64,000 nt of DNA from the NCBI RefSeq assembly GCF_000183725.1, contig NC_014762.1, positions 930,001 through 994,000 of the forward strand, given 5' to 3'. Shown here piece by piece: positions 38,232 through 52,117 of the stretch. The DNA is from Sulfuricurvum kujiense DSM 16994. Lineage in GTDB: Bacteria > Campylobacterota > Campylobacteria > Campylobacterales > Sulfurimonadaceae. Position 1 is the first letter of the stretch. The number at the start of each line of letters is the position of its first letter. The position numbers and the translations under genes were made by a program. The notes beneath the pieces were generated by a model. That model ran no database searches. It saw nothing but the letters and a program-made list of their open reading frames with translations, and was not told the DNA's origin.

Positions 38232-39377
38232 ATGAGCACTATCGATTTCTCCCTTTTACCCCATACCCCGTGCTATATCTGCGAAGAGGCTTTGTTAGAA
38301 AAAAATCTGCAAGTGATGGAGCGGGTGCAGAGAGAATCGGGTGCAAAAATCATCCTCGCCCTCAAAGGGTTCGCGATGTGGTCGACGTTTCCGCTCGTGG
38401 CAAAATACCTTCACGGATGTACAGCCAGCGGACTGCATGAAGCGAAGCTCGCGCGCGAGAAGATGAACAAAGAGGTCCATACCTACTCTCCGGCTTTTAA
38501 AGACGAGGATATCGACGAAATCGCCCGTATCAGCGACGATATCGTATTCAACTCCCCTGCGCAGTTTCACCGCTATTACGATCGTGTTAAATCAATTAAT
38601 CCGAATATTTCGGTATCGCTTCGTGTCAATCCGGAGTACTCCTCTTCACCCGTCGATTTGTATAATCCGTGCGGAGTGTACAGCCGTTTGGGGACGACAT
38701 TGGCTAATTTCGATGAGAGTATCGTCGGTAAACTCGACGGCCTTAATTTTCATGCCCTTTGCGAGCAGAATGTCGATGCGCTGGAGGGGGTTCTCGAAGC
38801 GTTTGAAGCAAAATTCGGCCCATTTATCGACGGACTCAAATACGTCAATTTCGGAGGAGGGCATCATATTACCCGAGTCGATTATGATGTGGAGCGTCTG
38901 ATCGACGTGATCCGTGCGTTTAAAGCGCGTCATAACGATATCACCGTCTATCTCGAGCCGGGCGAAGCCGTCGGTTGGCAGACGGGCCCGCTGGTCGCAT
39001 CGGTGCTCGATATCGTCCGTAACGGAATGGATATCGCGATTCTCGATACCTCTGCCGAAGCGCATATGCCCGATACCCTCGCGATGCCGTACCGTGCAAT
39101 GGTACGTGGTTCGGGGGAGGCGGGAGAGAAAGCGCATACCTACCGTTTCGGCGGAAATACCTGTTTAGCGGGGGATATTATGGGAGATTATTCGTTTGAT
39201 GAGCCGCTGAAAGTGGGGGACAAAATCATTTTCGAAGATCAAATTCATTATACATTTGTCAAAAATACGACGTTTAACGGAATCAAACTCCCCTCTCTGG
39301 CAATTTGGACCAAAGAGGGAGAGCTCAAAATGGTCCATGCATTCGGTTATGAAGATTATCGGAACCGACTCTCCTGA
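38232..39377 (+). CDS. nspC: Carboxynorspermidine/carboxyspermidine decarboxylase
   Basis: PLP enzyme of 381 residues of the alanine racemase-fold decarboxylases, removing CO2 from carboxy(nor)spermidine to give spermidine or norspermidine. The PLP lysine is in ILALKGFAMWS near 41. Other motifs are NPEYSSSP, NFGGGHHIT, YLEPGEAVGWQTG and GNTCLAGDIMGDY. This route is the usual polyamine pathway in Campylobacterota. The partner carboxyspermidine dehydrogenase is not next to it. It has its own promoter and converges on the chemosensory operon. Confidence 0.93.
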   Translation: MSTIDFSLLPHTPCYICEEALLEKNLQVMERVQRESGAKIILALKGFAMWSTFPLVAKYLHGCTASGLHEAKLAREKMNKEVHTYSPAFKDEDIDEIARISDDIVFNSPAQFHRYYDRVKSINPNISVSLRVNPEYSSSPVDLYNPCGVYSRLGTTLANFDESIVGKLDGLNFHALCEQNVDALEGVLEAFEAKFGPFIDGLKYVNFGGGHHITRVDYDVERLIDVIRAFKARHNDITVYLEPGEAVGWQTGPLVASVLDIVRNGMDIAILDTSAEAHMPDTLAMPYRAMVRGSGEAGEKAHTYRFGGNTCLAGDIMGDYSFDEPLKVGDKIIFEDQIHYTFVKNTTFNGIKLPSLAIWTKEGELKMVHAFGYEDYRNRLS

Positions 39378-39394: not shown

Positions 39395-41122
39395 CTAGAA
39401 AAACTCCAGTTCGCTTTCATCTTCATTCGTGACGGTGGTGAAAAGCGATTCGACGAGTGCACAGTCACTTAGCAAAGAGGCATCAAGATAATGGATATCC
39501 GGACAGTCCTGTGCAATGAAAATATGCATTTTCCAGTTTGCAAGATTATCGAAAATACCTGTTAAATAGGTTTTCAAAGTTTTTTGTTTAGTTTCTTCTA
39601 AACTTTCCACATCGATCGACTGTAGCAGGGTTATCAACGAATTGACCGAATAAGCAAGATCTCTAAATTCTATCGTTTCATTGAAAATATGGGTGTAGTG
39701 GACAAAAGTGACAATAACGGAATCGAGAACAGATGCCGTAAGGTTTTCATCAAAATACAACGCATCTTTGGCATCATTTTCATTTTCATTCAGATCGTCT
39801 ATTAATGCGGTATCGTATTCAAACTCTTCTAAAAACGCTTTGGCGGTAATTTTTTGATGATCTTCATAATGCATACAATTGATAAAGCCCATATCAACCT
39901 GCCGTTGCTTGCATTCAGGCTGTCCGGTATCGGCAAGTGCTGATGTTACGCTACATGCTATCGGATCACTTTCGGGAAATATAGTGGATGGAGCATTATT
40001 CGTTGGGAAAGTATTGTCATCACTTCCATCAAACTTCATACAGGCGAGAAGGCTATATTTGCTGACTTGGAATTCAATGCTTTTATCTTCACAATAGCAA
40101 GTAAGCATGGATGTTGTATGTTCATCGAAAGGGAGAGACTCGCTTTCCAGTGTTGCGCCGATGCAATAAGCCCCATCATCGACGGTGATTTGTGCATAGA
40201 AATTCCCATACTTTACCAACGTATGAAACAATATGTCGCTCAGATGCAAAATATATTTTTCAATTTTTTCAATTTCTCCGCTCGCTTCCCCCAATATCTT
40301 ATTAAGGCGCATGACAAAAACGTAGATGTCATGAGCACAGGCGATATAAATTTTATGGTGCTCGACAGCATCATTTGTGGTCTGTATAATTTCCGCTTCA
40401 AGTGATTCGTACGCTTTGGCTAGAAGAGGGTTCTTGTTGTCATATTCGATTTGCGTCATTGCGGCGATAATGATTTTTTCTTCTACGGTTTTGGGTTTAT
40501 GGTAGTTTTTAAGATAGTCGATTAATAGTGGAGAAAAATCAAAACTTTGTATGAGCTGCAATACCTTTAGAGTCTTCCGTTTTTTCAGTCCGATGGTCAA
40601 TAAGATAACGGCAAGCCTGACATTGGAAGCATTTTCAGCATCGATACGATAATAGCGCAGCAGATAATTTGCCAGATATAGAGCATCGATGATAATAGAG
40701 CGTCCGTCTTCATAGCTTATGAATGCTTTGATAAATTTGTCTCTTTCGCTTCCTACGTGCGGATTGGAACGTGCGAGAACATTATGGGCGCATTCGAGAA
40801 AACGTTTAGATTCGCACCCTTTTTGGATGATTCCCTTGACATTAAATTGATAGAGTTTGAGTCGGGCGATTTCATCCTGCCCGCTGTAATAGGCGATTAC
40901 CGGAAGATCATGGTAGACTTTGTCTTTGGTCAGGTCTGAATAATGTTGATCTTTTTCTGAAAGAAGGATCTCTTCATCTATAATCAGCAATTGCGGCTTG
41001 ATGTGCCGGATCTGATCTATCAGCGGTTGAGACTTGTCTATGACATTTACTTCAAAGTCCGATGCGAAAACATTACGAAGAAATTCGTTTTCGCTACTAA
41101 ATATTAAAAGAGAGTATTTCAT
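39395..41122 (-). CDS. Unrecognised 575-residue protein with receiver-like N-terminus, last gene of the chemosensory operon
   Basis: I do not recognise the family. Residues 1-115 look like a receiver (REC) fold: MKYSLLIFSSEN (strand 1), QLLIIDEEILL (strand 3, with an acidic pair at the phosphorylation position) and LPVIAYYSG (strand 4). The middle (about 130-310) is helical and recalls HD/HDOD-like bundles but lacks an HD pair. A cysteine-containing linker (about 390-440) follows, then a second helical domain and an acidic tail ending DESELEFF. The gene lies four bases after cheB, so it is part of the operon. The similar tail of the 304-residue neighbour suggests both bind the same partner. 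Confidence 0.75.
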   Translation of the reverse strand: MKYSLLIFSSENEFLRNVFASDFEVNVIDKSQPLIDQIRHIKPQLLIIDEEILLSEKDQHYSDLTKDKVYHDLPVIAYYSGQDEIARLKLYQFNVKGIIQKGCESKRFLECAHNVLARSNPHVGSERDKFIKAFISYEDGRSIIIDALYLANYLLRYYRIDAENASNVRLAVILLTIGLKKRKTLKVLQLIQSFDFSPLLIDYLKNYHKPKTVEEKIIIAAMTQIEYDNKNPLLAKAYESLEAEIIQTTNDAVEHHKIYIACAHDIYVFVMRLNKILGEASGEIEKIEKYILHLSDILFHTLVKYGNFYAQITVDDGAYCIGATLESESLPFDEHTTSMLTCYCEDKSIEFQVSKYSLLACMKFDGSDDNTFPTNNAPSTIFPESDPIACSVTSALADTGQPECKQRQVDMGFINCMHYEDHQKITAKAFLEEFEYDTALIDDLNENENDAKDALYFDENLTASVLDSVIVTFVHYTHIFNETIEFRDLAYSVNSLITLLQSIDVESLEETKQKTLKTYLTGIFDNLANWKMHIFIAQDCPDIHYLDASLLSDCALVESLFTTVTNEDESELEFF

Positions 41123-41126
41123 GGTT

Positions 41127-42173
41127 TTATCTCAAATTATTAATCATATCGGCAATCTCTAAGATTGAGAGAGAGCTTTTAACGGCTCCGAATTCCACCG
41201 CTTTTTTTGGCATCCCGTATACAGTACAAGATTTTTCGTCTTGCGCATAGGTAAGTGCACCTGCTTCTTTCATCGCTAACAACTTACTGGCACCGTCTTC
41301 TCCCATACCTGTTAAGATAACGCCTACTCCCATCGGACCGACTTCTTTAGCCATCGAAGCAAACAGTACGTCAACACTTGGTTTGTGGGAACTGACTTTT
41401 GGATAATCCTTTAATGTGATTTCGTAGCCGAAACCTGATTTTTTGACTTCCATATGAAGATCGCCCGGCGCGATCAAGATACGCCCCGGCAGCAGTTTGT
41501 CTCCTTGCGAGGCTTCTTTGATATCCGAATGGGGGACTAACGAATTAAGACGATCCGCAAACGATTTGGTAAATCCCGGAGGCATATGCTGGGTTATAAC
41601 GATGGCCGGGTGGTTTACTTTTAAATGCTGAACAATCTCTTCGATGACCTGAACGCCTCCTGTGGATGAGCCGATAGCGACGATTTTTTTGGATGCGGGA
41701 AGGGCAGAATTCTTTCCGTACTCTTCTTCCGATAAGGTATATTTTCGGGTAGCAATGCGTGAGTTGAAACGAACTTTTGCTTTCGAAGCGGCTCTTACTT
41801 TGTCTAAAAAATCCTCAGTCGCATCGTCGAAGAATTTACCCACATTGATATTCGGCTTATGAACGACATCGACGGCTCCCATCCGCATCGCATCGATAGC
41901 CGCACTGCTTCCCGGACCGGCCATCGTAGAGCAGATAATGACCGGGATCGGCTTTTGCCGGTTAATCAGCTGTAAAAACTCCAAACCGTCCATTTTAGGC
42001 ATCTCGATATCCAAGATAAAAACATCCGGAAGCCCTACGGTTTTAAAAACGTTAAATGCATCGACAGGGTTGGTTGCTTGACCAATCAGCTCTATATCGC
42101 TGGCTTTTTCGAAAATTCGTTTAAAGGCATTTCTAACAACGGCGGAATCGTCAATGACAAATACTTTAATCAT
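41127..42173 (-). CDS. cheB: Chemotaxis methylesterase/glutamine deamidase CheB
   Basis: Receptor-adaptation enzyme of 348 residues that removes methyl groups from chemoreceptor glutamates. The N-terminal receiver has the phosphorylated Asp in FILDIEMPKMDG (D55) and CSTMA and HKP motifs. The C-terminal esterase has the catalytic Ser in IGSSTGG (S170), TQHMP (His) and GMGEDGA (Asp). Both domains are complete, so activity would depend on phosphorylation by the local CheA. Four-base overlap with the 304-residue gene upstream. Confidence 0.96.
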   Translation of the reverse strand: MIKVFVIDDSAVVRNAFKRIFEKASDIELIGQATNPVDAFNVFKTVGLPDVFILDIEMPKMDGLEFLQLINRQKPIPVIICSTMAGPGSSAAIDAMRMGAVDVVHKPNINVGKFFDDATEDFLDKVRAASKAKVRFNSRIATRKYTLSEEEYGKNSALPASKKIVAIGSSTGGVQVIEEIVQHLKVNHPAIVITQHMPPGFTKSFADRLNSLVPHSDIKEASQGDKLLPGRILIAPGDLHMEVKKSGFGYEITLKDYPKVSSHKPSVDVLFASMAKEVGPMGVGVILTGMGEDGASKLLAMKEAGALTYAQDEKSCTVYGMPKKAVEFGAVKSSLSILEIADMINNLR

Positions 42174-43084
42174 TCAAAAAAATCCAATTGGCTTTTATCT
42201 TCCGTCTGTTCCGGAAAAAGATTTAGTTTCATAAATTCGATATTGTTTTCTAAAGAGTGTTCAAAAATATTTACATCCTGAAAAATCCGGTCTACGAACA
42301 TATCCATTAAATTTTTATTTACATCGCTGATGATTTCACATAAATAATCGAATGCTTTCAGCCCCTCTGGTTTTACGGTTGTCAAATCCAAATTGATTAA
42401 AAAGTCACCCAACCCTTTAAATGATGTAGATGCGGTTTTAATAAATTCATTTTTTGAAAAGATATCGGCTATTTCATAGCATTTTTTCCCGATTTGCGAC
42501 AGCAGTTCTTTCGATAACTCACCGTCTTTCAATTTTTGGTTTAATTCGGTCAGTTCATCGACGATAAATAATGAACTTCCCTCATAAAGGTCTAAAAAAT
42601 TAACTAACGTGTTAACACTCGCCGAACCGTTTTTTAAACTGATATCTCTGCGGCCGATCGATAAAACGGCATAAAAAGTACTCAGTACCTGAACCAGTCT
42701 CCCTTTTAATTCATTGAAGGAGAAATTATCAAAAATGATATGGTCGCTCCATTCTATTAAATCCAACATATCATCGTTGATATGTCTATTGATGATAGTC
42801 AGCACGACGATTCGGTTACTGTACGCTTGGAGAGCATTATAAAATAATTTAGCCTGAGCGGCATATTCTGTGGAGTCTAGAATAACCACTTCGATTTTAT
42901 TTGTTATTAGCGTGATATTAATATTTTCAAGTTCGGAATCATGAAGATTTCTTTGGATTGCACTTTCAAAAAAAGTTTCTAATTTATCGTATGCTTCATA
43001 GTGCCTCTCACTGAATAAAAGGATATTATAATTTTGTGCTAAAAACTGCAGGTAGTGACTATGTTGCTTGGTTGTCATATTCAC
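42170..43084 (-). CDS. Unrecognised 304-residue protein of the chemosensory operon
   Basis: No family recognised. Residues 15-135 have a receiver-like pattern (YNILLFSERHYEAYDKL, VVILDSTEYAAQ, IVVLTIINRHINDD), with an Asp at the expected site but no clear acidic pocket. Residues 140-290 are mostly helical and could be a bundle of Hpt-like or scaffold type. The C-terminus is acidic and ends DKSQLDFFE, close to the end of the 575-residue protein. It overlaps the ParA-like gene and cheB by four bases each. An adaptor between the ParA-like ATPase and the array is a possible but unsupported role. Confidence 0.75.
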   Translation of the reverse strand: MNMTTKQHSHYLQFLAQNYNILLFSERHYEAYDKLETFFESAIQRNLHDSELENINITLITNKIEVVILDSTEYAAQAKLFYNALQAYSNRIVVLTIINRHINDDMLDLIEWSDHIIFDNFSFNELKGRLVQVLSTFYAVLSIGRRDISLKNGSASVNTLVNFLDLYEGSSLFIVDELTELNQKLKDGELSKELLSQIGKKCYEIADIFSKNEFIKTASTSFKGLGDFLINLDLTTVKPEGLKAFDYLCEIISDVNKNLMDMFVDRIFQDVNIFEHSLENNIEFMKLNLFPEQTEDKSQLDFFE

Positions 43085-43896
43085 TGCTCCAAAATGGACT
43101 TTAGTTTGCTAAATCCTAACTTTAGCACATTTTCATAATAAGTGTCTGAAGTTTTTTTAATGTAGTTTTTAAAACTGTTCAGTTTGACCTCTTGCTCTTG
43201 ATTGAGATTCGCCATGTTCAATTTCAGCAGGGAGATAAAATCTTTGTTCTGATGCGCTATCTCATAGATCGTTAATCCGAATCTTCGGCTGTATTTGATG
43301 ATATCGTCATCCAGCATCACCAGATAGTTATGATCATTGTCAATGACACAGTTCATAACCGAATTGTTGTTTTCAAAAATGCCTCTGACATCTCCGAAAA
43401 AGTTATCGAACTGATATTCGATATAGCGATGATTTTTAGCACGGTTGAGAACAAAAATGAATTTTAAATCGGGCCTCATATCTTTTAAAATCGAATAGAT
43501 TACTACGGCATTTATACCGTCTTGTTCGCCGTCTAGGAGAGGAATGACCACTAAGTCGACAAAATGTATCATTCCGCTTTCATTGAACGCATTTAATACG
43601 ACTGTCGTCGTTATATTTCCGCCGATATCAAAACAAGCGATTTCGTCTCGTGAAAACATCTCGGTTATATCTTCATGTAAAATAGGAGAAGAGACTTCAA
43701 CGATTTTTCGGTTTGTCAATTTACTGTCGCCATAGCTCAGACAATCATTGTTTTCATCATCAAACTCATAAAAATAGACCGGTTGTTTGTTATTTAATTC
43801 ATATAAAAATGGGGCGATCAGCTGCATTGAAACGGTGCTTTTTCCCACTCCCCCTTTACTTGAAACTACAGCAATTTTTATATTTTTATTTTTCAT
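43081..43896 (-). CDS. ParA/MinD-like ATPase of the chemosensory operon
   Basis: Deviant Walker-type ATPase of 271 residues. Walker A is SKGGVGKST (13-21, with the signature Lys), A' is CFDIGGN and the switch region includes VVIPLLDGEQDG. ParA-like proteins place or segregate large cargos; in chemotaxis, ParC of Vibrio and PpfA of Rhodobacter position receptor arrays, PpfA together with a soluble receptor. Lying between cheR and cheB beside a soluble receptor gene, this protein is a good candidate for distributing a cytoplasmic array. No DNA-binding N-terminal domain is present, and no parB is nearby. Confidence 0.85.
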   Translation of the reverse strand: MKNKNIKIAVVSSKGGVGKSTVSMQLIAPFLYELNNKQPVYFYEFDDENNDCLSYGDSKLTNRKIVEVSSPILHEDITEMFSRDEIACFDIGGNITTTVVLNAFNESGMIHFVDLVVIPLLDGEQDGINAVVIYSILKDMRPDLKFIFVLNRAKNHRYIEYQFDNFFGDVRGIFENNNSVMNCVIDNDHNYLVMLDDDIIKYSRRFGLTIYEIAHQNKDFISLLKLNMANLNQEQEVKLNSFKNYIKKTSDTYYENVLKLGFSKLKSILEQ

Positions 43897-43901
43897 TCGT
43901 G

Positions 43902-44708
43902 TTATCCTTGTTTGCGATATATGGAAGTTTTGATCCGTTCAAGTCCATTTGTATTTATCATATTTAAATTTTCGGTATGAGAAATAAAAAAATACCCGCC
44001 GGGCAGAAGATGGTCCATAACACCATCCACAACTTTTTGCCTTGTTGCGTCATTAAAGTATATTAATACATTACGTAAAAAAATCAAATCAAATTGTCCG
44101 AAATCACTGGGGATATTGAGCAAATTGCCTTCTTCAAATCGCATATTCGGAATTAAGCAGCGGTCAATTAAAAATTTACCCTCGTTAATCCCTTTTCCCT
44201 TTAGGCAGTAGTTTTTACGTAGATAGGCGGGGATTTTTTCAACCCAGCTTTCAGGATAGAGACCTACTCTTGCTTTTTGAATCACATCGGAATTGATGTC
44301 CGTTCCGATTATCTCCCATTTGTTTTTATCTAGCATCGTGTCCAAAAGCATAGCGGCGCTGTATGCTTCCGCACCGACGGACGTGGCTGCGCTCCAGATA
44401 CGAAATTTTGTATGGATCGGATAGGTGGGAATCAGCTCTTTTTGTAAAAACTCGAAATGTTCCATTTCTCTAAAGAAGTAGGTTTCGTTGGTGGTTAAAA
44501 GATTAATCATTTCCACTTTTTCGAGTTGATTGATCTGTACTAAACGGAGATATTCGGTATAGGTTTCAAATTTGTATTTAAGCAGCTGTTTTAGCAACCT
44601 ACTTTGTACTAATAATTTCTTTTTATCATTTAAGTCGATTCCGGCTTCTTGAAAAAAAATTTTTTGGAAAGTTCGAAACTCTGCATCTTCTAATATCGGT
44701 ATAGACAC
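43902..44708 (-). CDS. cheR: Chemotaxis receptor methyltransferase CheR
   Basis: SAM-dependent enzyme of 268 residues that methylates receptor glutamates. An N-terminal helical domain is followed by TNETYFFRE, the SAM-binding region IWSAATSVGAEAYS, IIGTDINSDVIQKA and FDLIFLRNVLIYFN. The local receptor lacks a NWETF-type tether, so CheR must find it by other means. It lies eight bases after cheV and five before the ParA-like gene. Confidence 0.95.
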   Translation of the reverse strand: MSIPILEDAEFRTFQKIFFQEAGIDLNDKKKLLVQSRLLKQLLKYKFETYTEYLRLVQINQLEKVEMINLLTTNETYFFREMEHFEFLQKELIPTYPIHTKFRIWSAATSVGAEAYSAAMLLDTMLDKNKWEIIGTDINSDVIQKARVGLYPESWVEKIPAYLRKNYCLKGKGINEGKFLIDRCLIPNMRFEEGNLLNIPSDFGQFDLIFLRNVLIYFNDATRQKVVDGVMDHLLPGGYFFISHTENLNMINTNGLERIKTSIYRKQG

Positions 44709-44716
44709 ATATTGCC

Positions 44717-45685
44717 TTAGATGATCAATTCATGGATTGCTTCACCAAGCTTAAGCATATTTACTTTTCCGATTATTTTATCGGCACCGGCTGTCGCGAG
44801 ATTTTCTTTCATACTGTCATTGGACATATTCGTGTGGACGATAATCTTGATAGAGTCATAACTCTTATTATCTCTTATAAATTTCATGACTTCTCTGCCG
44901 CCCATCACCGGCATCTCCAAATCGGTTATAAAAAGCCCTATTTCGTCGTCCGGAATGTTTTTGATTCCGTCTATAAGCTCTTTTCCGTTTGTATACATCA
45001 CATAATTCACATTTAATGCATGGAAAAGTTCTACAACCATTTTTCGGATAAAACGGCTGTCGTCAGCAAAAATAACTTTCTTAGTAGTTCTGTCGATAGA
45101 TTTCAGGTCTTTGAAATGCAAACGGCTATCTGTATCGATTTTGTCAAAAACATCCAAAAGCATTTTATCGCTGTCAAAAATGCTGCATAGTTCCTCTTTT
45201 CCTGAAATCAGTACTTTCGTAATGAACGATGTTTTTTCATTGTTTTCGGAGTTATCGATCATTGTTTCGGCCGGGATATTGACAATATATTCAACTTTCT
45301 TAACGACGATTCCCATTTTATGACCGCCGTAATGGGCTAATATTACCAACTCATATTCACTGTCATCCAATACTTTGTTTCCGAACCAGCGGTCAAAATT
45401 GACAATAGTCGTCATATTACCGCGAACATCAGCAGTCCCTATGATTAGTCCGCCCTCAGGATTTCTGGCAATTTTTAAATCACTGTAAACGAGGAGCTCT
45501 TCAATTTTAGATACATTTTTAGCGTAGTATTGGTTGTCACTTCCTACAAAAATAAGATATTGACTGGTGTCATTGGCGTTCGTACTGACGAGTTTGATGA
45601 TATCCAATTCATCTTCATCCTCATCAATATCGGTTAGCCCCATTTTCGTAATGTCTTCCAGCTCATCGGTATTATAAGTTGTCAT
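44717..45685 (-). CDS. cheV: CheV-type CheW-receiver fusion protein
   Basis: Chemotaxis coupling protein of 322 residues. Residues 30-180 form a CheW domain (with IGTADVRGNMTTIVNFDRWFG), and 195-322 form a receiver with FADDSR, phosphorylated Asp in LFITDLEMPVMGG, VHTNM and a Lys in IIGKVN. It would link CheA to the receptor and may act as a phosphate sink or adaptation element. The 30-residue acidic N-terminal extension is unusual. It sits between cheW and cheR. Confidence 0.93.
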   Translation of the reverse strand: MTTYNTDELEDITKMGLTDIDEDEDELDIIKLVSTNANDTSQYLIFVGSDNQYYAKNVSKIEELLVYSDLKIARNPEGGLIIGTADVRGNMTTIVNFDRWFGNKVLDDSEYELVILAHYGGHKMGIVVKKVEYIVNIPAETMIDNSENNEKTSFITKVLISGKEELCSIFDSDKMLLDVFDKIDTDSRLHFKDLKSIDRTTKKVIFADDSRFIRKMVVELFHALNVNYVMYTNGKELIDGIKNIPDDEIGLFITDLEMPVMGGREVMKFIRDNKSYDSIKIIVHTNMSNDSMKENLATAGADKIIGKVNMLKLGEAIHELII

Positions 45686-45694
45686 AACGCCCCT

Positions 45695-46189
45695 TTATTT
45701 TACTACTCGTGACAATTCTTGGATATTCAAAATAGCTTGCGTGTCTAAAATCGCAATGTAATCACCCTGATATTTGCCCATCTTAGATATGAATTTTTTA
45801 TCTACTTTAGTCCCAAACCCCGGGGTCTCTTGGATGAGGTCGCTATCAATATCATCAACTTCGTACACTTCATCGATGATAATTCCGAGCTGTGTCGTCG
45901 TTTCGTCATTTTTTTTGTAGTTGACAACAATAATCGATGTTTTGTTGTTGACCTCTGTTTTGCCTAGATTAAAGCGATCAAGCATATCGATAACAGGGAC
46001 GATATTTCCGCGAATATTCGTTACCCCTTTTACGAAAGAGGGCATCAACGGAACTTTTGTAATGGTCGAATATTCAACTATCTCACTTGTGCTTAAAGCT
46101 CTAATCGCATAGATGTCTCCTCCTACATAAAATAGGAGGTATTGGTCATCTTGCTCTAATTCAGCTTCCAGTGCATCTTCATGATTCAT
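45695..46189 (-). CDS. cheW: Chemotaxis coupling protein CheW
   Basis: A 164-residue scaffold protein that joins CheA to receptors. The CheW fold is visible as QYLLFYVGGDIYAIRAL, then GVTNIRGNIVPVIDMLDRF (the conserved receptor/CheA-binding loop) and TQLGIIIDEVYEVDDI. The N-terminal ten residues are acidic. It is eight bases downstream of the receptor gene and nine upstream of cheV. Confidence 0.95.
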   Translation of the reverse strand: MNHEDALEAELEQDDQYLLFYVGGDIYAIRALSTSEIVEYSTITKVPLMPSFVKGVTNIRGNIVPVIDMLDRFNLGKTEVNNKTSIIVVNYKKNDETTTQLGIIIDEVYEVDDIDSDLIQETPGFGTKVDKKFISKMGKYQGDYIAILDTQAILNIQELSRVVK

Positions 46190-46197
46190 GATAATCC

Positions 46198-48360
46198 TTA
46201 GTAGCGATCAAAGTTTCGTAAATCCAAACCACTCTGATTTCCTGCAATCGCTGATGGACGTGAAGCCGATGAAACTCTCGCTAAAGGATTGTTAGAGGTA
46301 GCATTTCCGGTATTTGAAATTTTAAAGAACTGCATCATTCGAATCAAACTGTTAGCTTGTTCATTGAGCTCTACCGCCGCACTTGCCATCTCTTGCGATG
46401 ATGCTGCATTCGTTTGCGTCACTTGGTCTAACTGTGTCATGGCACTATTAATTTGTCCGATACCGACATCTTGCTCTTTTGCCGCATTGGCGATATCTTT
46501 TACCAGTTTAGCGGTGTTTTGAATTTTAGGAACCACTTCGCTGATCAAAGATCCTGCACGTTGGCTTACTTTGACGCTTTCACTCGCAGTCTGAGAAATC
46601 TCTTGAGCCGCTATTTGAGAACGTTTCGCCAATTTTCGAACTTCTGCGGCGACAACGGCGAATCCTTTACCGTGCTCGCCTGCACGAGCCGCTTCGATCG
46701 CCGCATTGAGGGCGAGAAGGTTTGTTTGATATACGATGTCTTCGATGATACCGATTTTTTCGCTGATGCTTTGCATGGCTTGCACGGTTTTGACGACGGC
46801 ATCTCCCCCTTCGATCGCCATAGAGGCCGCTTCTTCAGCCAATTGATTGGTTTGTTGAGCGTTTTTAGCCGATTCGCTGATGCTTGCGCTCATCTCTTCC
46901 AATGCGGCACTCGTCTCTTCCAATGAAGACGCTTGCTGTGTAGCTCCGGCTGAAAGAGATTGGGATGAAGAACTGACTCCCCCTGATGCACTTGTAATTT
47001 CATACGCGGCACCATTAATTTGTGCAACCATGTTCTCCAACTGTGTTCCCAAATTATTTGCCGTTTGTTTCACCGTATCATAATCACCTTTGTACTCTTT
47101 TGTGATTCTGTACGTTAAATTCCCTGCTTCTAACTCTTTTAATGCGTTGATCACTTCTGCAAAGCCACCGTCAACATCTCTAAGAAGGCTGTTGACCGCA
47201 TTGATTATGGTCATGTATCCGCCGATCAAACCTTCTTTTTTTACTTGAGTTTTTAGGTCTCCGACCGCAACAGCCGCTCCGGCTTCTTCAAAATTGGAGA
47301 GCATCAGTTCCATCGTCGCGGCAACGTTGTTGATCGCTGTTTTGGTGACGTTATAGTCCCCTTTGTATTCATTTGTGATTTTATCGACGAAGTTTCCGTT
47401 TACCAGACGTTCCATACCGCCGTTTACTTCTTTAAAGGCTGTTTCGACATCGTGAAGGAGATTATTGACGGCGGTTATAATGGTTTTATATCCCCCCTCA
47501 AGCCCTTTGTCATCCACTCGGGTTGATAGCTCACCGACAGTTACGGCTGCACTGGCTACTTCAAAGTTAGAGATCATGCTTTTGAGATTATCGATGGTAT
47601 GAGTCGTATAGACGGACAATGCGCTAAATGTTTTGTTAGCATCAATCAAATCGGCATCTTGGGTCGGCATTGGAACGTAGTAGGTATTGAGTTCCCCTTT
47701 CGCCACATTGTCCAAAATGGTTTGTAATTCTTTGATCTCATTATTGGTATAAGACATGATTTTATCGATTTCTCTCGTTTTTTCTTGAGCATCGGTTTGA
47801 TCCAAGATATATTCAAAAGAACCGACAATGACACCGTTTGTATCTTTTAGAGGCGAACCGAAATATTTGATGTCTAACGTTTTAGTTAGGCCGACCGGTT
47901 TGGCTTGACATTCATGATCGCACATTTTATCCGTTCGCATAGCCATATCGCATGCACATGATGTCGTATTACAATCGTCGGCATGAAACTGGTTATAACA
48001 TTTTGTCCCGACCATTCCCCCTTTTGGACTTCTCGTAATTGTTTCAGATAGAGCATTCGCCCATTTAATGGTAAAGTTCTTATCAAAAGCGACAGCCGGG
48101 ATCGGCAATCGGTCCATAAACCCTGTGTACACATCCGCCATGGCGTTGACAGATTGAGCTACCTCTTTGTAGACTCCTTCGTAACGGGTAACGTCGAGTC
48201 TGGTATTTAAAGAACCTGCGGAAATTTCATTTAAAACGGTGAAAGAATCTTTATTTAACGTTGAGAGATTTTTCTCACATTCAAGACCTAGGCGAATATA
48301 CTTTGCAACATCAGCTTCAGCGATACCGAACTCTGTCACGTCTAGATTTAGGTTGTTCAT
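46198..48360 (-). CDS. Soluble poly-HAMP methyl-accepting chemotaxis protein with Cys-rich PAS domain
   Basis: A 720-residue chemoreceptor without any membrane helix, so cytoplasmic. Residues 84-190 form a PAS domain with six cysteines (121, 130, 135, 137, 147, 151), a possible haem, metal or redox sensor. Residues 201-445 contain repeated HAMP units, recognisable by VGELSTRV / [17 protein letters not shown] / KEYKGDYDT and AVNNLL / AVNSLL. The signalling domain follows, with the conserved tip [20 protein letters not shown] at about 544-563. The C-terminus (NFDRY) lacks a NWETF-like CheR tether. It is encoded between cheA and cheW and is the obvious receptor for this operon's CheA. Confidence 0.95.
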
Positions 48361-48374
48361 TTTCTTTCCTTTTT

Positions 48375-50468
48375 TTAATTAATTTGTCTCATTTTTTGTT
48401 CTATCAACTTCGGAATATCAAAGATTAGTGCGATTTCTCCACTCCCTAAAATAGTTCCGCCGCTGATACCCGCGACGTTTACGAATACATCCCCTAACGG
48501 TTTAATTACCGTTTGAAATTCACCATACAGTTCATCTACCTGGAGCCCCATTTTGTACTCCCCGTACCGGAGCACAACAACGTTTTCACGTCCACTTCTG
48601 CTCTCTCCCTCGTTGAAATGGGTACGTATATCCAAAAGCGGTAAGATGGAATCTCTTAGATTAATAAAATGGTTCCCTTTCATATGTTCTTTGTATGCCG
48701 GACTCAATTCGATACACTCTTGAATCATTTCTAAAGGGATAATGTATTTGGTATCTCCGGACTGAATCAAAAACCCATCGATAATAGCGAGCGTTAATGG
48801 TAAGCGAATGGTAAATGTAGAGCCTTCTCCTTCTTTGGAATCAATTTCGACAGTTCCTCTGAGTTCTTCAATATTGCGTTTGACGACATCCATGCCGACT
48901 CCACGGCCTGAAATATCCGAAACTTGGTCTGCTGTTGATAAGCCTGCTGCAAAAATAAGGGTAAAAATCTCTTTATTTGTTAGGGTTTGATTTTTATTGA
49001 CGATTCCTTGCGCAATCGCCTTTTCCAAAATTTTATCTTTATCTAGTCCTTTGCCGTCATCGACGATTTTAATGACGATTGTTCCGGCATCGGGATAGGC
49101 GCTGAGAGTTACGGTCCCTTTTTCAGGCTTGCCTGCTGCGATCCTCTCTTGAGGAGTTTCGATACCGTGGTCAATAGAATTTCTCAGCATATGCATCAAC
49201 GGATCTGAAATTTTTTCAACCACCGTTTTGTCGAGTTCGGTTTCTCCGCCGTTGATGATAAATTCGATCTCTTTGCCTAGTTTTTTAGCGGCATCATTAA
49301 CAATTCTTCTAAATTTAGTAAAACTGTCTCCGACTTGAACCATTCTAATGTTCATGACACTGGATCGGACAGATTCGAGCATATCGCTCATAATGGCACT
49401 GGATTCGCTTAATTCAGCGTCATCGAGTATATCTGCCCGCTGAGCTATTTTGGCATTGGCGATAACCATTTCGGACATTTGATTGATCAACTGATCAATT
49501 TTACTGGACTCAACCCGAAGTGAAAAACTTTTATGCTGCTCTTTCTTAGCTGATTTGGTTTCTTCTTGCGTAACTTTATTTTCATCTCGTGTCTCGATGC
49601 TTTTGAGCGGGCTTTGTATGACCGGAGATTCTTCTTCAGTGACAAAATCTGCTTTGGTAAAAAAACCGTTAGAAATGAGGAATTTAACCTTGCTTTGCTT
49701 CTCTTCTAAGGTGTCGATCCAATTGAGAAGTTTTTGCTTATCATCCGTTTCGAAAATGACAAGGTCGATGTCATCTAGCACAAATTCAAATACCTCTTCA
49801 ATCTCTGAGGCGCTGCTTCTTGAAGAAAACTGTAGCTCAAATCCGATATAGGCTTCAATAGGGTTATAATGTTCTAATGTCGGAATATGGTCGGTAACGA
49901 TAGCTTTTTTAATCACTTTCCCCAATCTGTTCAGAAAAGCGATTAAATTTAAAACATCCATCCCGGTACTGAAAAAGTCTACTTTTAGACCAAGGCTAAT
50001 GTGCCAGAGGGTTTCTTCCGAAACTCCATCCGAAGAGACGGATGTTTCGGTGAAAAGAGAGCTGTCTGTGCCGCTTTCGGAACTTCCGGGTGTAAATTTG
50101 AGAAGCTGGGCTACTAAACGATCGTTTGTTTCTCTTATCTCATCGTCAATCGGTTTTTGATCTATTGATGCGCTTATCAGGGATTCCGTATGATCTTTGC
50201 ACAACAAAAACAGACTGATAAGTTCGGGAGTCAATTCTACTTTTTGGGCTCGTACTTCCGATAATAAATTTTCGGCAATGTGTGCGAAACTGACGACATC
50301 GTCAAAGTTAAACATACCGGCTGTTCCTTTGATCGTATGCATAGCTCTAAACAAAGCGCCGATATCCTCTTCATTGACCCCTTGATCTTGCATATTGATC
50401 AAAGCACTCTCCATGAAATTGAGCTGTTCGTCGCTGTCTTCTAAAAAGAGTTTGAGTTCTTCAGTCAT
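48375..50468 (-). CDS. cheA: Chemotaxis histidine kinase CheA
   Basis: Core kinase of 697 residues. P1 (Hpt) has the phosphorylated His in [11 protein letters not shown] (H44). A P2-like region lies at about 155-260. The dimerisation domain follows (about 335-395), then the ATP-binding domain with [41 protein letters not shown] and [10 protein letters not shown], and a CheW-like P5 domain at the end. Unlike the CheA-Y fusion typical of the main chemotaxis system in this phylum, there is no C-terminal receiver. The ATG at 50468 overlaps the STAS stop by eight bases and has an AAGG site; the frame is open to 50504. Confidence 0.95.
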
Positions 50469-50739
50469 GCAGAGAACCTTTAAAGAGAGTATCGCACCCG
50501 GCAATGCGCATAGAATTTTGTACTTCAGCAGATAAGTTTTTCAATATGAATTCAGTTGATTTTTTTTCACATGTTTTTTGAGCTGCGATGAGAAGTTGTA
50601 TAGCCGCAATGTCTATGGTATTGATACTCCCCAAATCGAGTATTAATTCCTTATCACTCTTCTCGCACCATTCTAATAAACTTTTATGCAGTGATTCGAC
50701 TTCGTAAATCGTGAGCTTTTCAAATTCAAGTTTATACAT
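50461..50739 (-). CDS. STAS-domain protein
   Basis: A 92-residue single STAS domain, of the anti-sigma-factor-antagonist type. The strand LILDLGSINTIDIAAIQLLIA contains the conserved loop, but the usual phosphorylated Ser (D-S motif) is replaced by TIDIAA, so regulation by phosphorylation is less certain. Single STAS proteins occur in some chemosensory operons, where they are thought to act as regulators or scaffold parts. It lies between cheY and cheA and overlaps cheA by eight bases. Confidence 0.85.
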   Translation of the reverse strand: MYKLEFEKLTIYEVESLHKSLLEWCEKSDKELILDLGSINTIDIAAIQLLIAAQKTCEKKSTEFILKNLSAEVQNSMRIAGCDTLFKGSLHD

Positions 50740-50752
50740 ATTTTTACTTTGG

Positions 50753-51112
50753 CTACATTAGTTTTTGAAGAACCATAAAGAACTTCTCTTTATTGAAAGG
50801 TTTGAGCATCCACGCTTTAACCCCAAGCGCTTTGCCTCTCTCTTTTAACAGAGGATTGCTTTCTGTAGTAAGCATGATTACCGGGATGAATTTGTAATTG
50901 GGATTGGCTTTAATATTCTCTACCATATCTAGACCGCCCATAATCGGCATGTTTACATCCGAAAAAACGATATCGATGTGCTGCTGCTCTAGCATCATTA
51001 AACCTTCTTGACCGTTTGTTGCTACTACCGGATTGTGACCGGCCTCTTTAATAGCTGATGTGGCGACACTCCTGATCAAACTTGAGTCGTCCACAATTAA
51101 AACATTAGCCAT
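50753..51112 (-). CDS. cheY: CheY-type response regulator
   Basis: Single receiver domain of 119 residues. The acidic pocket is IVDDSS, the phosphorylated Asp is in VFSDVNMPIMGG (D52), the switch Thr is in MLTTES and the Lys is in AWMLKPF (K104). It is the first gene of the operon, with a good AAGGAG site before its ATG. The output may be the flagellar motor or, given the unusual partners, something else. Confidence 0.95.
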   Translation of the reverse strand: MANVLIVDDSSLIRSVATSAIKEAGHNPVVATNGQEGLMMLEQQHIDIVFSDVNMPIMGGLDMVENIKANPNYKFIPVIMLTTESNPLLKERGKALGVKAWMLKPFNKEKFFMVLQKLM

Positions 51113-51249: not shown

Positions 51250-52023
51250 TTACCGATAATAACTTTTAATAAGTTCATAGGAATGTTGTAATGTTTGAAA
51301 TTTATCTGTATATTCTTTTACTTTTTCAAAACCGTCAGTATAGACGTTATCAGGATGAAATTGAATCAAAAGTTTTTTATAACGTGCTTTTATCACGTCA
51401 AAATGTTCATCCTGATGCGAATTTAAAAGTTTTAACGCATCCAATAATAGATCATTTTCTTGAGTGCTTTCAAAAACACGATCCAAGTGACTTTTGTCAC
51501 ATTGAAAGATAACATGGTTATTGTCAATTTGTTTCTGATTCAAAAGAGCATTTATTGTATGTTTAATGCCGTCCGTACGGATGGCGATTTCAAAAAAATT
51601 GTTTTCATAGGATATTTTTTCAATTTCTGACGTTAGTCGGCAAATCAATCCCTTTAATAATTTGTCATTTTTTTCAAGAAGCTGAAATCGGATTTTGTCA
51701 TTTAAAATATGTATGACAACCGTATTGATCCTTTTGATCTCATTTTTAGTGATGATCTTCACAGGTTTTTCGATTCGGTTCACAAGAACCTCTTTAAAAT
51801 GCAAGATATCTTTATTATGCGTTTTTCTGTGAATCGAGTAGAGCCATTTGATCAAAAAAATATGTTTATAATGATTTTCCTGCGAATAATGGAGTAGAAG
51901 ATGGTTTTTGTGAATATGATAGGATGAAAATTGATTTTCTATAAAGTGAAAAAGATTGTAAGTACTCATTTTCGATTCGTCAACATAGATAAGAGTATGT
52001 TGCGGACCCATTAAAATCTGCAT
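51250..52023 (-). CDS. Protein with C-terminal DnaJ (J) domain
   Basis: A 257-residue protein whose last 70 residues form a J domain (helix II, then LLIQFHPDNVYTDG with the HPD motif), so it should stimulate a DnaK-type ATPase. The J domain is at the C-terminus, unlike DnaJ itself, and no zinc-finger or Gly/Phe region is present. The first 185 residues, rich in His, Lys and Asn, are not recognised and may be a cargo-binding domain. The ATG at 52023 has GGGA upstream; the frame is open to a TTG at 52062. It follows the unknown coiled-coil gene and precedes the cheY promoter. Confidence 0.75.
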   Translation of the reverse strand: MQILMGPQHTLIYVDESKMSTYNLFHFIENQFSSYHIHKNHLLLHYSQENHYKHIFLIKWLYSIHRKTHNKDILHFKEVLVNRIEKPVKIITKNEIKRINTVVIHILNDKIRFQLLEKNDKLLKGLICRLTSEIEKISYENNFFEIAIRTDGIKHTINALLNQKQIDNNHVIFQCDKSHLDRVFESTQENDLLLDALKLLNSHQDEHFDVIKARYKKLLIQFHPDNVYTDGFEKVKEYTDKFQTLQHSYELIKSYYR

Positions 52024-52117
52024 AATCAATCCCATTCGAGGTAGTTGATTATTCGATAGCAATGTTCATTCCAGCTTATTCACATAAAAATTTTAATGTG
52101 CTGTACGGAAATGAAGA

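Follow-up and report, generated by a model that had tools for sequence, protein, structure and literature searches.

How a cytoplasmic chemoreceptor array is positioned, and what handles the CheY that such an array phosphorylates, are questions raised together by an eleven-gene chemotaxis (che) operon at positions 39395–51112 of a 64,000-nucleotide stretch of the Sulfuricurvum kujiense DSM 16994 genome (the window). Alongside recognisable che products the operon encodes a ParA-type ATPase and two proteins, here named U304 and U575. The account that we prefer, and hold with belief and doubt in even balance, is that the operon makes a cytoplasmic array of class F8, that U304 and U575 act on its CheY, and that one sublineage has acquired ParA to position the array. 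The new part is the U304/U575 family with a tail that resembles a CheY-docking peptide; an array that has a ParA to itself adds a new member to a type already described, and ParA is not constant in the operon. Among literature titles and the starts of abstracts we found no treatment of the two proteins or of the tail, from which we claim no absence from print.

In the preferred account, the soluble PAS/poly-HAMP receptor, CheA and CheW would build the cytoplasmic array, with CheR, CheB and CheV of its own, and CheA would phosphorylate the operon's CheY. U304 and U575, apparently encoded in place of a CheZ-like phosphatase, would bind CheY through a short C-terminal acidic-[LIVM]-x-F-F tail. 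Phosphorylated CheY would thereby lose its phosphate, be sequestered or be relayed. ParA would be a later addition in one sublineage, probably spacing or partitioning the array in the manner of PpfA. The docking to CheY, the replacement of CheZ, the cytoplasmic location and the partitioning are inferred.

Operon content and receptor class

The eleven genes are contiguous, all lie on the (−) strand and run from 51112 to 39395 in the order CheY, STAS domain protein, CheA, receptor, CheW, CheV, CheR, ParA, U304, CheB and U575, with spacings that range from overlap up to 14 bases (Table 1). An earlier note, made from the letters of the window, had listed these closely spaced or overlapping genes, and all stand where it put them with the identities that it gave; only the starts of CheA and U304 have been corrected. 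Its two unknown proteins have no Pfam match at E 0.01 (in NCBIfam, U304 has none and U575 one match at E 0.078), and its soluble receptor has no membrane span in a hydropathy scan, the highest 19-residue value being 1.01. Its description of the operon as self-contained is fair by gene content, with the reservation that a Pfam scan of the operon proteins found none of the eleven to be CheZ-like.

We read the receptor class from the signalling hairpin. Against Tsr, which has 36 heptads (36H), exactly 7 residues are deleted in each arm, giving 34H. All 12 receptors compared from operons of broadly similar make-up (STAS, CheA, receptor, CheW, CheV, CheR and CheB) share this pair of 7-residue gaps, and four of these receptors have a further insertion of 1–4 residues. 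The receptors of loci L071, L072 and L135 show no gap against Tsr (0/0, 36H) and that of L070 is longer (+14/+14, 40H); L070 is an F3-like cluster of the window's own genome, which also holds the 36H receptors of L071 and L072 and has 12 CheW-domain places in all, over 2.82 megabases (Mb) in five contigs. The 34H receptor class has been tied to F8 (PMC9321776, PMC8429497, PMC11253619), a class that Mo et al. 2022 (PMC9321776) had already recorded in Campylobacterota. F8 systems share with the window operon a cluster-encoded 34H receptor and a genome that also holds an F3-like cluster. They differ in that the receptor is membrane-spanning in two described cases (PMC7184735, PMC11253619) and soluble here, and we found no mention of U304 or U575 in the available part of the F8 description (PMC9321776). 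Two other classes were rejected. F9, the cytoplasmic class, is ruled out by the one signalling domain in the receptor, the one domain in CheW (Pfam) and the 34H count, compared with the F9 features in PMC9321776. As for F7/Aer2, the best NCBIfam match of the receptor is Aer2, far below the cut-off, and the signalling domain is 14 residues shorter than that of Tsr, by the two gaps of seven.

Receptors without a membrane span were found in 7/7 U304 operons with an unsplit receptor, and the C-terminal piece from L040, the only part of that receptor counted, has none either; L039 has no receptor. Receptors are membrane-spanning in 3/3 operons with a CheZ-like gene and an untruncated receptor, the L045 and L053 receptors, cut by contig ends, being left out. 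The L040 homologue, from a Lac Pavin metagenome-assembled genome (MAG), is split into two overlapping reading frames (L040:4370-6896), by a frameshift or an assembly error. The window receptor ends in NFDRY, which we take to fit the CheR-tether pentapeptide motif, x-[aromatic]-x-x-[aromatic], and its PAS region carries a cysteine-rich insertion, perhaps a metal or redox sensor.

U304, U575 and their C-terminal tail

In its AlphaFold model (predicted local distance difference test, pLDDT, 78), U304 has a receiver fold at residues ~17–138, a five-helix domain at 160–289 and a disordered tail. VIA-align matches the first of these to receivers (Z ~14, e.g. PleD, TadZ and NtrX), and it is degenerate as a phosphorylatable receiver, with the beta-5 Lys in 0/9 and the beta-3 Asp in 4/9 members. 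U575 (pLDDT 74) also begins with a receiver fold (VIA-align Z 16.5), followed by a helical middle, a stretch of very low confidence (327–418), a helical domain (427–560) and a disordered tail. The C-terminal domains of the two proteins form one family (hhalign probability 96.4%, E 1.1e-9), most members of which share the pattern D-[IV]-x-x-x-[DE]-x-S-[LF]. Matches to U575, mostly to its C-terminal domain alone, occur in 50 of 397 genomes, several of them behind a Pfam-recognised receiver. No usable fold match was obtained for these C-terminal domains, the VIA-align tables being filled by the receiver domain, so that novelty of the fold is not judged.

The two proteins end alike. All nine U304 proteins end in [LMV][DE]FF, that of the window with one further E, and 13/18 aligned rows of U575 and its domain relatives end in FF. 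In sister operons, the CheZ-like proteins end in FF or FFE (4/4), and the 358-residue proteins encoded between CheB and the CheZ-like gene carry the tail as well (4/4). Among 1184 non-redundant open reading frames (ORFs) at 67 loci, the strict tail is present in 31/64 members of our profiles and 1/1120 others, counts that hold for loci chosen around che genes and for profiles seeded, after removal of the tail, with some of the same proteins. The 33 members without the strict tail comprise 20 that match only the 358-residue profile, which also takes ordinary receivers, 3 CheZ-like proteins with a longer peptide and 10 that match the U575-domain profile. Searched as a DNA pattern, the tail gave 46 matches in 20 genomes with the domain, many of them the domain proteins themselves, versus 9 for a reversed-pattern control; in 20 genomes without the domain it gave 10 versus 14.

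The sole non-member with the strict tail is a protein with a GGEEF-type motif, recognised by eye. This GGDEF-like protein of the window's own genome (L073:14698-15450) has no che genes recognised beside it and ends in ..NEELDFF, and a similar protein in genome G129 (L195:1501-2259) has the same tail, a possible cyclic di-GMP output of the pathway. Among the own-genome pattern matches, C4:1341697 is the GGDEF-like protein and two others are receiver (REC) proteins of the second cluster; C3:41752 and C4:96011 were dropped, as they are not the ends of called reading frames.

The C terminus of CheZ binds CheY. In a search that did not extend to L047 and L048, CheZ-like proteins of three system types have Q-x-x-D-[IV]-x-x-Q in 13/13 aligned rows. 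Two kinds of ending occupy the same place in them: the short FF tail, or a longer peptide, which reads DIEALLASFGQK in the F3 CheZ candidate of the genome and NDVDDILKSYGL or similar in 8 proteins of family code f8. Those of the sister operons have 136–139 residues, and the one scanned (L045) has no match to Pfam CheZ (PF04344) at E 0.05; the F3 candidate also falls below the Pfam CheZ cut-off. Compared by eye, U304 and U575 end in a short acidic-hydrophobic peptide like that of the CheZ-like proteins, and we predict that the FF tail is their CheY-docking peptide. The likeness to CheZ-type phosphatases lies in the kind of terminal peptide found in sister-operon CheZ-like proteins, and the difference in the U304/U575 domain, which has no D-x-x-x-Q and no profile match.

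The distribution of the genes bears on the same point. No CheZ-like gene occurs in the stretches read of the nine U304 operons, and none of the four operons whose CheZ-like protein carries the tail (L045, L155, L156 and L158) has U304; U304 goes with the cytoplasmic branch of the 34H class. The two genes were not seen together in any operon and receptor solubility splits with them, so U304 probably takes, for its own CheY, the part that a CheZ-like protein plays in other operons.

The CheYs themselves differ at the switch position. Tyr106 of CheY reorients on activation, raising FliM binding (PMC7012829). When the position is matched by eye, it is occupied by Trp in the CheY belonging to the operon itself in 17/17 readable STAS-bearing operons of the 34H and 36H types (13 of class 34H including the window's, and L055, L071, L129 and L135), and 12 of these 17 stretches hold a strict-tail protein. 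Tyr is found in 10/10 CheYs of f8 operons, in 3/3 F3-like CheYs of the window's own genome and in three Arcobacter-type receivers (L057, L058 and L078), which stand outside the Trp/Tyr count. Also outside it are L126, with no CheY in its stretch, and single receivers other than the operon's own CheY (e.g. L045:3792, L053:3164, L127:7577, L129:6109, L136:5234 and L067).

Several observations weigh against an F8-type array with CheY handled by U304 and U575. The operon's predicted class-F8-type (34H) membership has the heptad count as its sole basis. The D-x-x-x-Q catalytic motif of CheZ is found neither in U304 (D270-x4-E275) nor in U575 (D-x4-D), and the U304/U575 domain against a small, four-row CheZ-like alignment gives hhalign probabilities of 1.8 and 0.6%, which is no match, although so few rows do not support a firm negative. 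U304 was rejected as a CheZ by homology for want of a profile match and, because of the missing profile match and the D-x4-[DE] in place of D-x-x-x-Q, phosphatase activity receives no positive support. The ten U575-domain proteins without the strict tail divide into eight with a looser one (e.g. FELF, DLILF, AEFF) and two with none (L055, L160); genome G378 has the domain and no exact match to the tail pattern; and proteins with the tail also lie away from che genes (L122, L162 and the GGDEF-like protein). Trp CheYs occur in stretches without a tail protein (L055, L154, L157 and L159) or with a loose tail only (L129), and the Trp/Tyr split follows phylogeny and may not represent independent events. 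Finally, the exchange of U304 for a CheZ-like gene is not strict, because the L054 operon has neither.

A wider generalisation, which we put forward tentatively and think somewhat unlikely, is a docking code. F8- and F7-type proteins with the acidic-[LIVM]-x-F-F tail would be read by Trp CheYs, and F3 and other systems would keep the longer CheZ/FliM-like peptide together with Tyr; in cytoplasmic F8 systems CheZ would have been replaced by U304/U575, and the tail would wire in other outputs, such as the GGDEF-like protein. If this is true, parallel Campylobacterota chemosensory pathways are insulated from one another. To our knowledge, how bacteria with at least three chemosensory systems keep their CheYs apart is an open question, and a six-residue tail marking the partners of one CheY class would make it testable with peptides.

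The ParA-type ATPase and its possible role in array positioning

The ParA-like ATPase that the earlier note placed in the operon has intact Walker motifs: K14, G15, G16 and K19 of a signature-lysine Walker A, D46 and D90 are invariant in 12/12 sequences. The window protein matches Pfam ParA, AAA_31 and CbiA only below their cut-offs, and a weak match to an HNH model in PADLOC (E 8.5e-4) was taken as chance. Homologues at E<=1e-10 occur in 59/397 Campylobacterota genomes, at 67 places including the window's own. Of the 66 places besides the window's, 31 were read for neighbouring genes, together with L039 and L040; of these 33, 16 have at least two che markers within 6.5 kilobases (kb) of ParA, 4 have one and 13 none. 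In the ParA tree the 16 che-linked ParAs group with that of the window (support 87/88), and seven ParAs that have no che neighbours form a separate clade (100/100). The split is unclean, in that L066, L076 and L052 (the last inside a che-linked clade) lack che markers and fall in the che-linked group. A plasmid search with ParA returned one match, on a Helicobacter cetorum plasmid, at 30.7% identity.

U304 is the better marker of the operon type. Its full-length matches are confined to 7/397 genomes (10 when any match at E<=1e-3 is counted), with L039 and L040 in addition, and it stands directly before CheB in 9/9 operons. Just 3/9 U304-type operons, those of the window, L039 and L040, have ParA between CheR and U304; in the other six, U304 directly follows CheR. 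In a tree of Campylobacterota CheAs only, the eight U304-type CheAs form one clade (100/99), L039 having no CheA on its contig and L125 being left out as a duplicate of L161 from the same genome stretch. Within it, the window and L040 are sisters (98/95) and G129, by CheA the nearest ParA-less operon (65% identity), comes next (99/95). By whole-genome search, 5/6 ParA-less U304 genomes have no ParA homologue at E<=1e-10, and G044 has one on another contig. A single gain of ParA in the window's sublineage is the simplest reading.

ParA also occurs in operons with CheD within the same family code (L045, L053 and L054), and in family code f8 it adjoins an operon of another type, so it seems to move between che operons. 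This distinct f8 operon (L041-L044, L046-L052) encodes a CheZ-like protein, CheA, CheW, a CheV-like protein, CheY and two proteins like methyl-accepting chemotaxis proteins without clear membrane spans, and ParA lies on the opposite strand just downstream in 10/11 stretches.

Cytoplasmic arrays served by a ParA of their own are a known kind, since ppfA-like genes are published as common in che operons (77/206 species; PMC2829493). Rhodobacter sphaeroides CheOp3 (PpfA, TlpT; PMC3964821, PMC2829493, PMC5706961) resembles the window operon in encoding both a soluble receptor and an ATPase of the ParA family. In R. sphaeroides the TlpT N-terminus engages PpfA (PMC3964821, PMC5706961), and proteins that partner ATPases of this kind are described as having in common a disordered N-terminus of positive charge (PMC10241942). 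By contrast, the window receptor has a net charge of −3 over its first 30 residues, none of the ten non-ParA operon proteins is net positive there, and ParA is optional in the operon family; the window CheA is single and whole, unlike the CheA3/CheA4 split of R. sphaeroides (PMC6829392). The Vibrio ParC/ParP system for polar arrays (PMC5706961) likewise has a ParA-family ATPase linked to che genes. ParP is a CheW-like domain preceded by a ParC-binding N-terminal region; no ParP-like protein was recognised among the operon's own proteins, in which CheW is bare (domain 16–156 of 164 residues) and CheV has 45 residues before its CheW domain and ends in a receiver. The acidic CheV N-terminus is also present in ParA-less operons. 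TadZ/CpaE pseudo-receivers are functionally linked to ParA-like ATPases; U304 resembles them in its receiver fold (Z 13.9 against TadZ, tied with other receivers) and in adjoining the ParA gene, and differs in being kept without ParA in other operons and in having no fused ATPase.

The earlier note had centred its reading on PpfA, with ParA actively partitioning the cytoplasmic array and U304 and U575 serving as lineage-specific adaptors between the two. That reading now seems improbable to us. ParA does adjoin U304 in three operons, it does group with other che-linked ParAs, ppfA-like genes are frequent in che operons, and the soluble receptor and the ATPase do stand in one operon. What does not hold is that ParA is core to the operon type, and the receptor N-terminus is not basic. 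The note had named absence of ParA from close relatives as the finding that would tell against it; ParA is absent from 6/8 other operons, G129 among them, and kept in the two closest, L039 and L040. The adaptor role itself is unlikely, because U304 is kept in ParA-less operons and both proteins have the CheZ-like terminal peptide. A doubtful alternative would give the family two ways of tethering to the nucleoid, ParA-less operons anchoring the receptor to DNA by a basic N-terminal stretch, as the basic N-terminus of FrzCD binds the nucleoid (PMC5716589), and the window's lineage using ParA instead. The highest net charge in any 12 of the first 40 residues is +4 to +6 in 5/6 receptors from ParA-less operons and +1 in the window receptor and the L040 N-terminal piece, which suggests two alternative tethering modes. 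However, the five basic receptors reach only 0 to +4 over the first 30 residues, the 12-residue measure is weak because the window CheR also reaches +5, ParA-less G393 has neither the basic stretch (+1) nor ParA, and just two receptors from ParA operons could be read. FrzCD arrays (PMC5716589) resemble the operon family in their soluble receptor and, for most ParA-less relatives, in the basic stretch; the window receptor lacks that stretch and the window CheA lacks a receiver.

The remaining alternatives concern U304 and U575, or the operon as a whole. U304 and U575 could be phosphate sinks or array scaffolds rather than CheY regulators, with the tail docking to CheV, CheB or CheA. A receiver fold opens both proteins, and Pfam recognises receivers in further members of the domain family, so the family belongs in the world of CheA phosphotransfer. 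Yet U304 is unlikely to be a general phosphate sink, because the receiver Lys is missing in 9/9 and the beta-3 Asp in 5/9, and the tail resembles the CheZ-like terminal peptide; we consider this reading unlikely. Most improbable of all, in our judgement, is that the operon is a commonplace accessory one gained by transfer and does nothing specific to localisation. Its patchiness would fit (U304 is in 0/8 other genomes sampled from the same genus code, although a Sulfuricurvum MAG does encode a relative, at 65% identity, as does a Campylobacterales one at 63%), as would the G+C content of 0.398 versus 0.457 in the rest of the window (two upstream genes are also low) and the split L040 receptor. 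Against it, none of the eleven genes is interrupted in the window, and most of the gene order is retained in three family codes (f1, f4 and f7) and at the two MAG loci. Under the preferred account, an F8-type array with CheY handled by U304 and U575 and with ParA in one sublineage, the operon family would be a natural comparison for positioning, because the same array comes with ParA, with a basic receptor N-terminus in the absence of ParA, or with neither.

Gene calls and further observations

Table 1. Features of the operon in the window, with the evidence for each.
Feature	Position	Strand	Evidence
CheY	50753..51112	(-)	Pfam Response_reg 1.8e-22; GVKAWMLKPF, Trp at E. coli Tyr106 position (matched by eye)
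STAS domain protein	50461..50739	(-)	Pfam STAS 1.4e-12
CheA without receiver domain	48375..50468	(-)	Pfam Hpt, H-kinase_dim, HATPase_c, CheW above cut-offs
Soluble PAS/poly-HAMP chemoreceptor, class 34H	46198..48360	(-)	Pfam MCPsignal and two HAMP_2; PAS_4 below cut-off
Receptor C-terminal NFDRY, CheR-tether-like pentapeptide	46201..46215	(-)	Sequence
CheW	45695..46189	(-)	Pfam CheW 2.6e-32
CheV (CheW and receiver), acidic N-terminal extension	44717..45685	(-)	Pfam CheW, Response_reg; N-terminus read
CheR	43902..44708	(-)	Pfam CheR 1.6e-45, CheR_N
ParA-type ATPase, optional operon member	43081..43896	(-)	KGGVGKST, FEFDDEN, FDIGG; NCBIfam ParA_partition 1.1e-10 (below cut-off); tree
U304: degenerate receiver, helical C-terminal domain, LDFFE tail	42170..43078	(-)	Alignment of 9; AlphaFold pLDDT 78; VIA-align Z ~14 vs receivers
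EDKSQLDFFE, predicted CheY-docking tail of U304	42173..42202	(-)	9/9 family members end [LMV][DE]FF
CheB with receiver	41127..42173	(-)	Pfam CheB_methylest 8e-59, Response_reg
U575: degenerate receiver, helical middle, low-confidence stretch, U304-type C-terminal domain, LEFF tail	39395..41122	(-)	AlphaFold pLDDT 74; VIA-align Z 16.5; hhalign E 1.1e-9
NEDESELEFF, predicted CheY-docking tail of U575	39398..39427	(-)	Sequence

The most likely start of CheA is ATG 50468 (697 residues), as in the L040 homologue; the frame in the ORF list opens at TTG 50504. For U304, ATG 43078 is preferred over GTG 43084. Downstream of the operon lies a convergent gene (38232-39377). Upstream, 137 bases off on the same strand, the gene at 51250-52062 encodes 270 residues with a C-terminal J-domain match below cut-off and has a G+C content of 0.304.

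Two further protein types were seen in related operons. All six ParA-less U304 operons (L121, L123-L127) have an extra protein of 280–296 residues between CheA and the receptor, which is not present in the window or L040; that of L121 has a PAS plus CZB match just below cut-off. Histidine-kinase-like proteins stand beside CheD in sister che operons (L045:4199-5035, L053:3562-4377, L054:7266-8522, L055:4772-5656, L071:7055-7864, L072:13951-14898, L133:4066-4962, L134:14057-14950 and L135:1996-2889). Compared with the canonical H-box, these nine proteins have Asn (8) or Ser (1) at the His position and His in 0/9, which points to a His-less kinase family tied to chemosensory systems.

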